A stretch of 36,879 bases of DNA from an uncultured Bacilli bacterium. Its GTDB lineage: Bacteria; Bacillota_I; Bacilli_A; RF39; UBA660. The stretch is from positions 1-36,879 of the forward strand of contig CANQPC010000013.1 of assembly GCA_947625625.1 (NCBI GenBank). Reading direction: 5' to 3'. Shown here one piece after another: positions 2,728 through 10,110 of this stretch; positions within the stretch are counted from its first letter, which is position 1; each line of letters starts with the position of its first letter. The translations under genes and the position numbers were made by a program. A model generated the notes under the pieces. The model was not told where the DNA came from, searched no databases, and saw only the letters and a list, made by a program, of their open reading frames with translations.

Positions 2728-3792
2728 TTATTTCTGACGAACTTTCTTACAATTAGGTTCTTTACTAATTATATATTCTTCCATCGCAGAAAGTAATTTT
2801 GAAATTAAATCTTTATCACTTATATCTATACCAATACTTAAACATATTTCATAAACGCTTTTATCATTATAGTCAAATATATGATTATTTAAGTAAACAA
2901 TAGAATCTAAATCTGAGTATTTTCGAGCTAGAATTGTTAAAAAAGTCCCCAATAGATATTTATAATCATAAGCCATAATTTCTTCGCCAAGTATATATCC
3001 TATTTTTTTAGGATTATCTTCTAAAATATCTTTATTTTCTTCTTCACATTTACTTAATCTTTTACATAAATCAGTACACTCTTTTTCGAAATCTTTTTCA
3101 GAATATTCTGCTTCCTCATTTAGTAAATATTTTTGTAATAAAGTAAATGTCTTACTATCTAAATTACCAAAGCTTAAATAAGCTAATAGAATAATTTCGT
3201 ATTTAAATAAAGAATTAGAATTTCTTCTTATAGCTTTAATTCTATATAGATAATCTATTTCTTCTCTATTTACTCCTTTATCTAGTAGATAGTCAATAGC
3301 ATAAAATTCAAAATAGATAGCTAAAAATTCCGCCAAGTAATTAAAGTTTGTAGAATATTTTTTAGCATTAGTATAATGAATAAACTCGTGTACTAAAAGT
3401 CTTACATCATTATAATTAAATTCTCTACTAATATTAATTAAGGTTTTTACTTCTTGTTTCTGCCTATCATAAGTAATTAAACATTCTGAGCCATCATATT
3501 CATCATCATAACCAAAATCTAATTCCCCATTTGCTATTAATTTATCAAAACTTTCGAGATAACTACTATCAATATGTTCGATAATTTCTCTCGCTAAAAA
3601 ATAAACATCTTCATAAGTTAAATGATTTTGAACTACTTCATTTTCTAGCGAGTAATCATATATGAATCCAAAAAAAGAGTCATTTACTTCACCAATACGA
3701 TATATATTATCTAATAGGAAAGAATCATCTTCATTTAAATAAGAACAAATATCATTCAAATAATAATTTAATTTTTGATATATTTCTTCCAT
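2728..3792 (-). CDS. Putative HExxH zinc metallopeptidase, soluble
   Basis: A 354-residue acidic protein with no signal peptide or membrane helix. Residues 135-139 read HEFIH, a match to the HExxH zinc site, preceded by the hydrophobic run VRLLV. A downstream helix, NYLAEFLAIYFEFY (151-164), carries E155 and E162 as candidate third ligands, as in gluzincin-type peptidases. The spacing of 16 residues from H139 to E155 is on the short side. The rest is Leu/Glu/Tyr-rich, with no domain I can name. The start is ATG with AAAAAGGAG upstream and a near-consensus promoter at 3856-3885. It is divergent from parA. Zinc-peptidase chemistry is inferred from the motif alone, and substrate and family are unknown. 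It shares no obvious similarity beyond HExxH with the membrane protein at 25756. Confidence 0.8.
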   Translation of the reverse strand: MEEIYQKLNYYLNDICSYLNEDDSFLLDNIYRIGEVNDSFFGFIYDYSLENEVVQNHLTYEDVYFLAREIIEHIDSSYLESFDKLIANGELDFGYDDEYDGSECLITYDRQKQEVKTLINISREFNYNDVRLLVHEFIHYTNAKKYSTNFNYLAEFLAIYFEFYAIDYLLDKGVNREEIDYLYRIKAIRRNSNSLFKYEIILLAYLSFGNLDSKTFTLLQKYLLNEEAEYSEKDFEKECTDLCKRLSKCEEENKDILEDNPKKIGYILGEEIMAYDYKYLLGTFLTILARKYSDLDSIVYLNNHIFDYNDKSVYEICLSIGIDISDKDLISKLLSAMEEYIISKEPNCKKVRQK

Positions 3793-3885: not shown

Positions 3886-3996
3886 TTAATAATCGATAAC
3901 ATCAAAAAAAAATATTAAATTTAGAGACCTTAGACTCTAAATTCTTTTGGAAGACAGCAAGGCTTACAAAAGCCTGAAGCAATGAAATGCGAAAGG
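3882..3996 (+). repeat. Dispersed multi-hairpin element, copy 1 (upstream of parA)
   Basis: Three consecutive hairpins. H1 is AATTTAGAG (3918-3926) pairing with CTCTAAATT (3935-3943), followed by CTTTTG. H2 is AGGCTT (3960-3965), loop ACAA, AAGCCT (3970-3975). H3 is GCA (3979-3981) pairing with TGC (3988-3990), followed by GAAAGGG. The same order of hairpins, with H2 and the following GAAGC identical, recurs at 8890-8976, and H1 alone recurs at 6974-7011. Outside the pairing segments the copies differ, so structure looks better kept than sequence. The element could be a small palindromic mobile element or a structured RNA. I cannot match it to a known riboswitch class. Confidence 0.7.
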
Positions 3997-4037
3997 GAAA
4001 AAGAGAAGAAATATTTTAAAAGACCTTTCTTTTTTTT
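3991..4037 (+). terminator. Possible attenuator or terminator just ahead of parA
   Basis: GAAAGG (3991-3996) can pair with CCTTTC (4024-4029), which runs directly into eight Ts. The loop is large (27 nt), so the hairpin is weak unless the AT-rich loop folds further. If transcription through the upstream hairpin element reaches parA, this would be a premature stop. Alternatively it ends a small RNA made from 3882 onward. Confidence 0.35.
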
Positions 4038-6247: not shown

Positions 6248-6265
6248 CTATTAATAGAGGTGGAT

Positions 6266-6943
6266 ATGAAGTATTTAAAAAATTTATGGCTTTCTATAAG
6301 AAGTATTTTTGGAATAATGCTTATTCTTTATAGTTTACTTATCTTATCATTTTTTCTTTTTGGTAAAGAAAATGCCACTAAAGGAGCTTATCTATTAGTC
6401 TTATTATTTCAAATTGGATATATTATCTATATATATAGGAAAGAAAAATTTACTATTAAAACTACAGTTAATTATTTTCCATTCATTTTAATTGGTACAT
6501 CTATTGCTATTATTTTTAATATGTTTATTTTTAAAATAGGAATTAAATTCGAAGTCAACTATCATGTATCTCCTTTTACTTATATCATTTCTTCATCAAT
6601 AATTGGTCCTATTTTCGAAGAACTTATCTTTCGGCATAAATTAGTTCCTCGCCTTCGTAAATTTAATTCGAAGATGATGACAATTCTATTATCAGGAATA
6701 ATTTTCAGTTTTTGTCATGCCAATCATATTGTCGGAATATATGCTCTAATAGTGGGCTTTATATTAGCTTATTTTTATCTCAAATATCAAAATATTTTAA
6801 TTCCTATTATTATTCATATATCAGGTAATCTAATTGTCAATCTTCTCTTTGACTATAATACAGTAATTCTTATCTTAGGAATCATCATTCTAATTCTTGG
6901 TATATTTGGAGTAAGAATAGAAAATAAAAAAATAGGGCATTAA
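6266..6943 (+). CDS. CPBP-family intramembrane glutamic protease (Abi/Rce1-like)
   Basis: A 225-residue polytopic membrane protein with about six to eight hydrophobic helices. It carries the CPBP motifs: EELIFRHKL (E118, E119, R123), a histidine in FSFCHANH (H151) and HISGN (H184, N188). These line the intramembrane active site in Rce1-type proteases. Substrates are unknown; in Bacillota such genes often occur beside bacteriocin or stress loci, but none is seen here. I prefer ATG at 6266 over the GTG at 6260 because AGAGGTGG (6256-6263) then acts as a ribosome site, although at short spacing. The stop codon (6941-6943) lies inside a 76-bp repeat that recurs after the next gene. Confidence 0.88.
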   Translation: MKYLKNLWLSIRSIFGIMLILYSLLILSFFLFGKENATKGAYLLVLLFQIGYIIYIYRKEKFTIKTTVNYFPFILIGTSIAIIFNMFIFKIGIKFEVNYHVSPFTYIISSSIIGPIFEELIFRHKLVPRLRKFNSKMMTILLSGIIFSFCHANHIVGIYALIVGFILAYFYLKYQNILIPIIIHISGNLIVNLLFDYNTVILILGIIILILGIFGVRIENKKIGH

Positions 6944-7013
6944 TTATTGCAAACCATATATCTTTATATAATTAAATTTAGAGACTTTTATAGGCTCTAA
7001 ATTTCTTTTTGTA
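6938..7013 (+). repeat. Direct repeat, left copy, bracketing the ABC-F unit (includes terminator)
   Basis: 76 bp matching 8854-8929 at 75 of 76 positions; the only difference is A6958 versus C8874. It includes the stop codon of the CPBP gene and a terminator: AAATTTAGAG (6974-6983) pairs with CTCTAAATTT (6995-7004), followed by CTTTTT. Similarity ends sharply at 7013. The next ten bases, GCTTGCAAGC, are a perfect palindrome, whereas the right copy continues into two further hairpins. Confidence 0.92.
6974..7011 (+). terminator. Terminator of the CPBP gene
   Basis: A 10-bp perfect stem with an 11-nt loop and a CTTTTTG tail. Arms and loop are identical to the terminator at 8890-8927. Confidence 0.75.
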
Positions 7014-7050
7014 GCTTGCAAGCATCTTGAATAAAATACCTGAATTTAAA

Positions 7051-7078
7051 TTGACAATTAAGTAAATTCATATATAAT
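7051..7078 (+). promoter_or_regulatory. Consensus SigA-type promoter for the second ABC-F gene
   Basis: Perfect TTGACA (7051-7056) and TATAAT (7073-7078) hexamers with a 16-bp spacer. The predicted leader to the ABC-F start is about 155 nt. That leader contains a self-complementary AAATATTT pair and no ATG-started leader peptide. Confidence 0.7.
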
Positions 7079-7240
7079 ATAATTTAGAAAAAATATTTTA
7101 GACTTTTCATAAATATTTTAATAATTGGACCATTTATTATTTTCAATAAAACTATAAATCATTAAAGTTCGATTTAGCTAATTATAATATAAAAAAGATT
7201 CAGTGGAAAAAGAAAGAGAACTGTGAGGTGTGTGGTTCCC

Positions 7241-8851
7241 ATGATAGTAAATAATTTAAAAGTATCATTTTCCGACAAAAATGTTTTAAATGGAGTATCA
7301 TTTTCTCTTAATAATAAAGACAAAATTGCTTTAGTTGGCCCTAATGGCAGTGGAAAGTCAACTTTACTAAAATCATTAGCGGGTGAATTAATCGTAGATT
7401 CTGGAAGTATTAAAACATTTGGAGAAACAATAAGTTATTTAAAGCAAGAAATTCCACATGTATTTAATGATTATTCTATTATAGAATTTATAAAGAAAGA
7501 AATAGGCATTGATAAACTTGAAAAACGCTTAAACTATTTAGAAGCAAATTTATCTGAAGAAAACATGAACGAGTATGGAGATATAATAAATAAATTTTTA
7601 GCTCTAGATGGATATAATTTTGAAGATAATTTAAAAATTGTTTTGAGTGGTCTACATTTTGACAATGATTTAGAAACTAAAGTTAGATACTTATCAGGTG
7701 GAGAGAAAATAAAAATATTAATTGCCATACTTCTTTTAAAAAATTCTGATATATTACTTTTAGACGAACCCACTAATAATTTAGATATTGAAGCAATACT
7801 CTGGCTAGAAAATTATTTAAAGCTTTCTAATAAAAAAATGATAATTGTATCTCATGATGAAGAATTTTTAAATAATATTGCTACAAAGATATTTGAATTA
7901 AATGAAGGAAAAATTTCTGAATATAACTTAGGTTATAATGATTACTTGGCAAAAAAAGAAATAGAATATAAAAGACAATTAGATGATTACACTAATGCTA
8001 TAGAAAAAAAAGAAAAGTTGAAAAAACAGTTGACTAAAGCAAATGAATGGGCGAGTAGAGGACTTAATAAAAAAGCACATAGTGATAATGATAAAATTGC
8101 TAATAATTTTGCCAAAGAAAGAACTAATACTGCTAATTTAGGAAAATTATCAAAAGCTTTAAATGAAATTGATATTCCAAATTTCAAAGAAAAAAAGCCA
8201 ATAAACGTAGTATTTGATTTAGATGATTCTAAGGGTAATAAAGATATTATTTTAGATAATTTAGTTTGTGGGTATGATAATTTTAGAACAAAATCAATCA
8301 CTTTATCAATTCCTTTTGGAACAAAAATAAGAATAGATGGTAAAAATGGTAGTGGCAAGACAACTTTCGTCAAAACAATATTATGTGAAATACAACCGAT
8401 AAGTGGAAAAGTTATAATTGGTAAAAATGTTAAAATAGGCTACATTTCTCAAGATACATTAGCCTCAACTGAAAATAATGATACAATACTAAGTTATTTA
8501 ACAAAAGACAAAAATAATATAGATTTGTCACAACTTTTCATCATACTTGATAAGTTTGACATTAGCTACAATGATAAAGATAAATTATATATGTCTTTAT
8601 CTCCGGGAGAAAGAACAAGAGTCAATTTGGCAAAAATGGCTCTAGAAAAAACAAATGTTTTAATTTTAGATGAAGTTACCAATCATCTTGATACAGAAGC
8701 ATTAAATTTAATCTACGAGTTAATAAAAAACTATATAGGAACTATTATCAGTATATCGCATAATCGAAAGTATAATAGTTTGTTAAATACCGATATTATA
8801 TTAGATGTAGAAAAAGGAAAAGTAGAAAATAAATGCTTAATAAAAAAGTAA
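7241..8851 (+). CDS. ABC-F family ATPase, second copy, in a repeat-bracketed unit
   Basis: A 536-residue soluble protein with tandem ATP-binding cassettes and no membrane segments. Domain 1 has Walker A GPNGSGKS (33-40), signature LSGGE and LLLDEPTNNLD. A long Lys-rich linker includes ANEWASRGLNKKAHSDNDK, then domain 2 has GKNGSGKTT (from 367), LSPGER and Walker B LILDEVTNHLD. The usual DEPT is DEVT there (V479), and the switch reads SISHN. The Walker glutamates are kept, so ATPase activity is expected. Antibiotic-protection ABC-F proteins share this layout, but I cannot name a subfamily. A GTG at 7223 is in frame; ATG 7241 is preferred because AGGTG (7226-7230) lies 10 nt before it. It is not close to the ABC-F at 1015-2613. 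Promoter, long leader and flanking direct repeats suggest an autonomous, possibly acquired unit. Confidence 0.93.
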   Translation: MIVNNLKVSFSDKNVLNGVSFSLNNKDKIALVGPNGSGKSTLLKSLAGELIVDSGSIKTFGETISYLKQEIPHVFNDYSIIEFIKKEIGIDKLEKRLNYLEANLSEENMNEYGDIINKFLALDGYNFEDNLKIVLSGLHFDNDLETKVRYLSGGEKIKILIAILLLKNSDILLLDEPTNNLDIEAILWLENYLKLSNKKMIIVSHDEEFLNNIATKIFELNEGKISEYNLGYNDYLAKKEIEYKRQLDDYTNAIEKKEKLKKQLTKANEWASRGLNKKAHSDNDKIANNFAKERTNTANLGKLSKALNEIDIPNFKEKKPINVVFDLDDSKGNKDIILDNLVCGYDNFRTKSITLSIPFGTKIRIDGKNGSGKTTFVKTILCEIQPISGKVIIGKNVKIGYISQDTLASTENNDTILSYLTKDKNNIDLSQLFIILDKFDISYNDKDKLYMSLSPGERTRVNLAKMALEKTNVLILDEVTNHLDTEALNLIYELIKNYIGTIISISHNRKYNSLLNTDIILDVEKGKVENKCLIKK

Positions 8852-8853
8852 GC

Positions 8854-8929
8854 CATTAATTATTGCAAACCATCTATCTTTATATAATTAAATTTAGAGA
8901 CTTTTATAGGCTCTAAATTTCTTTTTGTA
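8854..8929 (+). repeat. Direct repeat, right copy, bracketing the ABC-F unit
   Basis: 75 of 76 positions match 6938-7013. It begins 3 bp after the ABC-F stop codon and contains that gene's terminator. Confidence 0.92.
8890..8927 (+). terminator. Terminator of the second ABC-F gene
   Basis: A 10-bp perfect stem with an 11-nt loop, followed by CTTTTTG. It lies 39 nt after the ABC-F stop codon. Confidence 0.75.
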
Positions 8930-9104
8930 AGACCATAAGGCTTACAAAAGCCTGAAGCTACTTTAGTGCGGAAGGAAAAAATAGTATTTACTAAAACATA
9001 TAAAAGTGATAAAATAGTAAATATTATTGTGTATTAGGTTTATTTTTTTTGCCGTAGTATAATCAAATAAAAAATCATAAAAATAAATAAAGGGAGTCGA
9101 TAAA

Positions 9105-10043
9105 ATGAAAGATAATTCATTGGAAATTGAAACATTATCAAATAATGATATACATTATAAAGCAAAAACAATTGAATCTGATAGTATTAAAATGTATATA
9201 AAAGATATTGAAGAAATACCCTTGTTAACTCCCAAGCAAGAAATAGAGCTAGCTCTCAAAGTATCTCAAGGTGATGAAGAAGCTAGAATAAAATTTATTG
9301 AAAGTAATTTAAAGCTAGTTATATCGATAGCTAATAAATATATTGGCCATGGATTACCCCTTTTAGATTTAATTCAAGAAGGTAATATAGGTTTGATGAC
9401 AGCTTTAGATAAATTCGATGTAAGTAAAGGCTATAGATTTTCAACATATGCCATTTATTGGATTAGGCAAGCCCTCATAAGTGCTATTTATGAAAAGACA
9501 AGAAATATTAAAGTAAGTAAAAATTTGCTTATAAAGTTAAGAAAATATCAGCAAATAGTATATGAATTAGAAATTAAATTAAATAGAATGCCAACTGATG
9601 AAGAAGTAGCTATAGCAATGAATAAATCATTAAAGGAAATTATGGAATTAAAAAAATATCAAGTTGATACTATCAGTATTAATAATAAAGTTGGAGTAGC
9701 CGAAAATACAGAATTGCAAGACTTTATTCAATCAGATGATATTAGTATTGAAGACATGGTAATCTCTAAAACTCTTTTATCAGAAATATTTGAAAAAGAC
9801 TATTTAACCTCTACTGAAAAAGATATTTTAATACAATTATTTGGATTATATGGTCGAAATGCCTCTCCACTTAGAGTAGTGGCCGAAAAATATCATATGA
9901 GCGGAGAATGGGTAAGAAATATTAGAGATATGGCATTAAATAAAATTAGAAAAGAATTTGGTATATCTGTCAATAAAAAAATATGTCACTATAAAAAAAG
10001 GAAAATAAAAACTGTCATAAATAGTAGTTCAAATATTAAATAA
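9105..10043 (+). CDS. Divergent sigma-70 family RNA polymerase sigma factor (group 2-like)
   Basis: A 312-residue sigma factor that would direct RNA polymerase to a promoter set. Region 1.2 is at about 25-55 (SIKMYIKDIEEIPLLTPKQE), region 2 at about 60-130 with FIESNLKLVISIANKYIG and KGYRFSTYAIYWIRQAL, region 3 at about 138-215, and region 4 at about 230-285 with a helix-turn-helix near 253-280. It resembles RpoD/SigA but departs at DNA-contact segments. Region 2.4 and its continuation read SAIYEKTRNIKVSKNL, without the IRIPVH-type sequence of primary sigmas. Region 4.2 reads VVAEKYHMSGEWVRNIRDMAL in place of VTRERIRQIE. The tail is basic (KKICHYKKRKIK). I therefore call it an alternative factor. 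The start is ATG after AAAGGGAGT. A TATAAT at 9058-9063 lies upstream without a good -35. Confidence 0.9.
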   Translation: MKDNSLEIETLSNNDIHYKAKTIESDSIKMYIKDIEEIPLLTPKQEIELALKVSQGDEEARIKFIESNLKLVISIANKYIGHGLPLLDLIQEGNIGLMTALDKFDVSKGYRFSTYAIYWIRQALISAIYEKTRNIKVSKNLLIKLRKYQQIVYELEIKLNRMPTDEEVAIAMNKSLKEIMELKKYQVDTISINNKVGVAENTELQDFIQSDDISIEDMVISKTLLSEIFEKDYLTSTEKDILIQLFGLYGRNASPLRVVAEKYHMSGEWVRNIRDMALNKIRKEFGISVNKKICHYKKRKIKTVINSSSNIK

Positions 10044-10080
10044 TTACCTCTAATAATTAAATTAACATCAATACTTTTTC

Positions 10081-10110
10081 TTTACTTTTATATCTTTTTA
10101 TTATACAATA
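10081..10110 (+). promoter_or_regulatory. Possible promoter of the dnaB-dnaI-dnaE-gmk operon
   Basis: TTTACT (10081-10086) is followed by TATACA (10103-10108, 16-bp spacer) or TACAAT (10105-10110, 18-bp spacer). It is close to the dnaB start, leaving a leader of only about 15 nt. Confidence 0.4.

Follow-up and report, generated by a model that had tools for sequence, protein, structure and literature searches.

The ABC-F ATPase gene described here is probably the surviving self-protection gene of an imported operon, and the 76-bp direct repeat around it is probably a recent duplication that arose by way of a dispersed, hairpin-forming element. The window—the whole stretch of 36,879 nt that we analysed—comes from the genome of an uncultured Bacilli bacterium, coded G000; its relatives in the genus are coded G001-G010, and G032 belongs to another genus. 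We infer the self-protection role, the order of events and the recombination step from the evidence given below.

The direct repeat

A sequence-only reading of this DNA had drawn attention to two 76-bp segments differing at one base, and a position-by-position comparison bears it out: 75 of the 76 positions are identical, the single mismatch being A6958/C8874. The copies are also more alike than A+T-rich intergenic DNA should be, as that reading held, since the base composition of the window (27% G+C) leads one to expect about 4e-29 such pairs. The repeat finder extended the pair to 91 nt at 96% identity (6923-7013 and 8839-8929), the extra 15 nt being A-rich and therefore weak evidence. The sharp end of the similarity was likewise correctly noticed: it stops exactly before the palindrome GCTTGCAAGC, and past the right end of the repeat 14 of 47 positions match, the best local alignment being no better than those of shuffled sequences (p 0.18).

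As had also been pointed out, the stop codon of the upstream gene, which encodes a CPBP membrane protease, falls within the left copy (TAA, 6941-6943). Both copies start only a few bases from where a gene stops—CPBP and ABC-F, respectively—next to the 9-mer AATAAAAAA, of which there are 26 occurrences in the window. The repeat opens with ~36 nt that only this pair shares: they lie outside the dispersed element, and the genome contains no further copy of them. The second half is not private to the locus, related hairpins being found at 3917-3997 in the window and elsewhere in the genome. That the second copy is an assembly artefact from a misjoined metagenome contig is very improbable: although the window is one of the 48 contigs of its genome (92% completeness, 4% contamination) and dispersed elements of relatives are often located where contigs end, usual reads are longer than the repeat, a single base tells its copies apart, and the segment holds a coherent ThiF-ABC-F tail known from relatives.

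Table 1. Features of the ABC-F locus and related hairpin elements in the window.
Feature	Position	Strand	Details
Three-hairpin element, another copy, upstream of parA	3917..3997	+	R1 match 3917-3971, 49 bits
CPBP (Rce1-like) membrane protease gene	6260..6943	+	PF02517; last codon and stop in left repeat copy
Left copy of 76-bp direct repeat	6938..7013	+	~36 nt unique to pair, then hairpin 1 (6974-7004); 75/76 identity, hairpin scan
Left copy, match to model R1	6974-7024	+	36 bits
GCTTGCAAGC palindrome	7014..7023	+	At hairpin 2 position of full element; GAC..GGC loop missing; weak R1 match ends 7024
Consensus sigma-70 promoter TTGACA-N16-TATAAT	7051..7078	+	12/12 match
Remnant of 3' end of MccB-like ThiF gene (..KSLKFDLANYNIKKIQWKKKENCEVCGSHDSK)	7130..7240	+	In-frame stop; tblastn with G032 and G005 enzymes
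Intact ABC-F ATPase gene	7241..8851	+	ATG 7241; PF00005 twice; alignment with two orthologues
Right copy of 76-bp direct repeat	8854..8929	+	Repeat finder, 75/76 identity
Complete three-hairpin element	8890..8975	+	Hairpin 1 8890-8920, hairpin 2 8922-8950, hairpin 3 8951-8975 (hairpin scan); R1 match 8890-8949, 53.8 bits; fold z -3.1
RpoD-like sigma-70 gene	9105..10043	+	PF04542/PF04539; same extra segment between CPBP and dnaB

The ABC-F gene and its promoter

The protein encoded between the repeats belongs to the ABC-F ATPases: two ABC domains, matched by PF00005 in two stretches, stand in one chain with a linker between them, and both Walker A and both signature motifs are present (GPNGSGKST, LSGGEK, GKNGSGKTT and LSPGERTR in the orthologue alignment). 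Its GTG-start form scores 376.2 bits against NF000355, the model of ribosomal-protection ABC-F proteins, which has a curated cut-off of 380. The sequence comparisons indicate that ATG 7241, not GTG 7223, is most likely the start, because the ThiF tail overlaps or abuts the ABC-F start in relatives as well as in the window; GTG 7223 sits inside the remnant of that other gene. A structure prediction from a three-sequence alignment reached a mean pLDDT of 65.9, which is too weak for classifying the linker.

The sequence-only reading was right that a single intact gene with a consensus promoter of its own lies between the repeats; the promoter is found ~160 nt upstream of ATG 7241. It resembles the promoter of the G005 operon (see below) no more than chance would allow: 23 of 300 shuffles did equally well, so the promoter may be local. 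The window carries a second ABC-F gene at 1015-2613 on the minus strand, which scores 414 bits against NF000355, above its cut-off.

A variable junction between CPBP and dnaB

Orthologues of CPBP occupy the same place in nine of the ten genus relatives, with the neighbourhood parB-csp-CPBP conserved; the locus is not covered in G008. The next gene, recognised by eye, is dnaB in G002, G004, G005, G006 and G009 and an ORF6N-like gene in G001, G003, G007 and G010. No ABC-F gene lies between CPBP and dnaB in any of the nine relatives showing the locus. Since the locus is found there without the ABC-F or the sigma gene, both genes are additions in G000, in line with the earlier suggestion that ABC-F was inserted. 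The sigma-70 gene (312 aa) has no close orthologue in the genus, its best match (46%) being to a section of an open frame of 534 aa in G008. The junction as a whole (6944-10109 in the window) is a variable spot in the genus, being empty, or filled either by the ORF6N-like gene or by ABC-F and sigma. Elsewhere in the window, the cspA-like gene at 5851-6246 matches the Rfam cspA thermoregulator below threshold (43.5 bits, gathering score 78), and a 354-aa ORF at 2728-3792 on the minus strand has no Pfam or NCBIfam match.

A decayed peptide-ThiF-ABC-F operon

Among the 60 genomes searched (the window's own and relatives), close forms of this ABC-F protein occur in two others only, G032 (64%) and G005 (59%), the remaining full-length matches reaching at most ~39%. 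For scale, the ParB proteins of G000 and G005 are 90% identical. The ABC-F of G000 is thus nearer to that of another genus than to that of its own, which does not follow the species tree and points to horizontal transfer; a horizontal origin is strongly supported by these sequence comparisons.

In G032 and G005, the genes follow the same order: a gene for a 21-residue peptide, a MccB-like ThiF gene and, directly after it, ABC-F, an operon that rests on two contigs only, both from metagenome assemblies and one of them 3.4 kb long. The ThiF-family proteins (PF00899; 341 and 343 aa, respectively) are 57% identical to each other, and among solved relatives MccB comes closest to the enzyme (E 9e-32), the match extending into the N-terminal part of MccB. 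The peptides, translated by eye, are MKFTIKKLNTTKFACHVDQNC in G032 and MRFGVKKLRVVKFACHVDQNC in G005, sharing the ending KFACHVDQNC. A pattern search with their shared C-terminal codons across 385 genomes of the order found these two genomes only, and a pattern-based scan of 84,980 species genomes returned the two clusters, one distant ThiF and nothing more. Viral carriage of the cluster was rejected, since viral contigs contained neither ThiF nor the peptide and phages contained no ThiF; plasmids searched for ThiF gave distant matches only. The papers covered by our literature search described no ThiF and ABC-F cluster and no matching repeat family.

The three genomes hold ABC-F in three places: between CPBP and dnaB in G000, beside a tRNA-Cys gene just beyond it in G005, and beside a resolvase gene starting ~345 nt past it in G032. 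The proposal that the gene is movable agrees with such a patchy and mobile family, in which the two relatives with a close form carry it at different places, one of them next to a resolvase gene.

What the window retains of the ThiF gene is its last ~37 codons, in frame just before the intact ABC-F gene, with ..KSLKFDLANYNIKKIQWKKKENCEVCGSHDSK immediately preceding the ABC-F start. By tblastn against a small subject of 357 nt, this stretch matches the C-terminus of the G032 enzyme at 20 of 43 positions with an in-frame stop (E 4e-9) and that of the G005 enzyme at 13 of 32 (E 2e-7). The other ThiF-like match in G000 is weak, and the pattern search found no peptide gene in this genome; the window therefore holds no intact peptide-modifying operon of the MccB/ThiF type. 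As far as these sequences tell, the window ABC-F appears to be the orphan of a horizontally acquired peptide-ThiF-ABC-F cluster, and the clean promoter-gene-terminator unit initially pictured has to be replaced by a decayed operon with a ThiF remnant before ABC-F.

The remnant also bears on another possible history, in which homologous recombination brought a circular or linear unit, bearing ABC-F and a single repeat, into an existing repeat between CPBP and sigma, and the unit could leave in the same way. Such a unit would suit direct repeats of 76 bp, 99% identical, around exactly one intact gene that arrived recently in a variable junction. We consider it unlikely, however: the order CPBP, one repeat, sigma without ABC-F, which the sequence-only reading had proposed to look for, was found in no genome, the sigma gene being missing there as well; the ThiF remnant speaks for a decayed operon and not a tidy unit; and the ~36 bp of the repeat outside the element lack a third copy from elsewhere in the genome.

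A dispersed three-hairpin element

The right copy of the repeat forms the 5' part of a three-hairpin element, running on into hairpins 2 and 3. In the left copy, hairpin 1 is intact, hairpin 2 is broken inside and lacks its loop, and hairpin 3 is absent. An element of this kind also stands upstream of parA in G000, G003, G005, G009 and G010, and not in G001, G002 and G006. Each hairpin ends in GAC-N-GGC, with an A.G mismatch below a C-G pair; a search of the window for stems of at least five pairs that carry this loop returned the element hairpins and two weak five-pair stems only. R1, a covariance model of hairpins 1 and 2, was built from a six-sequence seed (MAFFT misaligned hairpin 2 in two larger alignments). 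It matches all 11 genus genomes, 1 to 42 times each with opposite-strand palindrome echoes included, which corresponds to ~1 to 35 real copies; in the 116 genomes searched from the family's other genera, it has no match at E 1e-5.

The stems of the element covary very strongly. In an alignment of 61 matches, which was fitted to R1 so that the figures lean towards the model, 98.2% of cells form standard pairs, against 76% in shuffled data; two-sided changes affect 17 of 20 pairs and 217 cells, the latter against 42 shuffled (none of 500 shuffles as high); and pairing falls to 63% or less when the partner column is slid by one. An independent scan recovered a 10-pair stem in hairpin 1 and a 9-pair stem in hairpin 2 in most copies, their sequences differing.

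The copies are intergenic, lie in either orientation and are flanked by gene pairs in all four arrangements, on which grounds a riboswitch or a fixed leader was rejected. The two-hairpin type faces the 3' end of an opposing gene in 26 of 35 cases (p 0.006; types assigned by eye, neighbours by a simple ORF rule). An intrinsic terminator was rejected too, with none found in 6850-9120 and the hairpin stems being A+T-rich. Thus, from the earlier idea of a dispersed terminator repeat, the dispersal stands, with copies across the genome and the genus, and the terminator falls, there being no terminator match and the hairpin being part of a multi-hairpin element. REP elements with a RAYT transposase were rejected as well: the Y1-type transposase PF01797 is missing in most element carriers, being found in G003 only and not in G000, G009 and eight others. 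Viral carriage of the element was dismissed on five exact pattern matches, none of which showed a second motif hairpin by eye. Scanning the window with Rfam gave no match at gathering score and none on the element by E-value; the family is previously uncatalogued, genus-specific and matches no Rfam family. The element might function as RNA or as single-stranded DNA.

No transposon ends were found at recent copies, and those of G008 and G003 were duplicated together with neighbouring gene ends. Three copies in G008 (L080, L087 and L095) share a long identical upstream stretch that reaches the start region of the neighbouring genes, so the elements spread with segmental duplications. A three-hairpin element also lies upstream of an RNase J-like gene (named by eye) in both G000 and G008 (L094 and L091).

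Origin of the repeat and proposed history

Since hairpin 1 and its flank are still identical at 75 of 76 positions, the left copy has not simply decayed, which argues for recent copying or joining that broke off within hairpin 2. The initial ~36 nt, outside the element and without a third copy, argue in turn that more was involved than recombination between two dispersed elements.

One might suppose that the duplication came later than the insertion and had nothing to do with it, the right intergenic stretch having been copied leftward by gene conversion or replication error, possibly helped by A-rich microhomology. The complete element in the right copy only, and the start of both copies near a gene end beside the frequent 9-mer, would fit such an event; yet no intermediate was seen, and a 76-bp conversion tract between sites with little homology would be unusual, so that we find this even less probable than the integrating unit.

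Overall, we favour a history in which ABC-F arrived as the self-protection gene of a horizontally acquired operon for a precursor peptide, a MccB/ThiF-like peptide-modifying enzyme and ABC-F. The gene would have reached the variable CPBP-dnaB junction in company with a foreign sigma-factor gene or adjacent to one. Before or after this arrival, the peptide gene and most of the enzyme gene would have been lost, bringing the promoter close in front of ABC-F. The repeat would have formed recently, when intergenic DNA reaching as far as hairpin 1 of the dispersed element was duplicated, and the break inside the left hairpin 2 points to recombination or template switching at the element as the duplicating event. 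As an origin of the gene, self-protection against a peptide encoded by the cluster is no less likely than antibiotic protection. It is tempting to go further, although here we are tentative and rather doubtful, and to see two novelties at once: a genus-specific class of tandem-hairpin elements, with covarying stems of fixed length and a GAC..GGC loop that never changes, which a protein would bind in RNA or single-stranded DNA form and which would serve here as a recombination point, and a new type of peptide cluster with ABC-F self-protection.

Comparison with known systems

Like the antibiotic-resistance or ribosomal-protection ABC-F proteins (NF000355; Vga, Lsa, Msr), the window protein has two ABC domains, and its linker is likewise predicted to contain long helices in the moderate-confidence model mentioned above. 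It falls just under the NF000355 cut-off and far below that of every named subfamily, and differs in its partners, its relatives sitting with a peptide and a ThiF enzyme.

The clusters of G032 and G005 resemble microcin C-type and other ThiF/TLAT RiPP clusters (MccB, PaaA, GrcB, EnfB; PMC12250964) in having a short precursor gene beside a MccB-like adenylyltransferase, whereas the window keeps ABC-F alone as an intact gene; the term ABC-F is absent from that review. MccB modifies Asn at the end of its precursor (PMC12250964), whereas the G032 and G005 precursors end in Cys, so that McC-type chemistry is not implied. A thiolactone, as in the GrcA peptide (PMC12250964), is by analogy one possible candidate for the product.

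Measured against REP/BIME and other stem-loop repeat families as PMC2817692 and PMC2267715 describe them, our element is similarly short, intergenic, palindromic and dispersed in either orientation. It differs from what is described there in having two or three tandem hairpins in one orientation, in being restricted to one genus, and in combining fixed stems (10 and 9 bp) of free but covarying sequence with a fixed GAC..GGC loop; no Y1/RAYT transposase was found in the element carriers G000 or G009.

If our account is true, it reveals how a resistance-type ABC-F gene may come to stand alone: brought in to give immunity within a peptide cluster, the protector outlasts the decay of that cluster. 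It would also expose a small precursor-MccB-ABC-F operon in uncultured gut Bacilli, together with a strongly covarying dispersed element outside all Rfam families.
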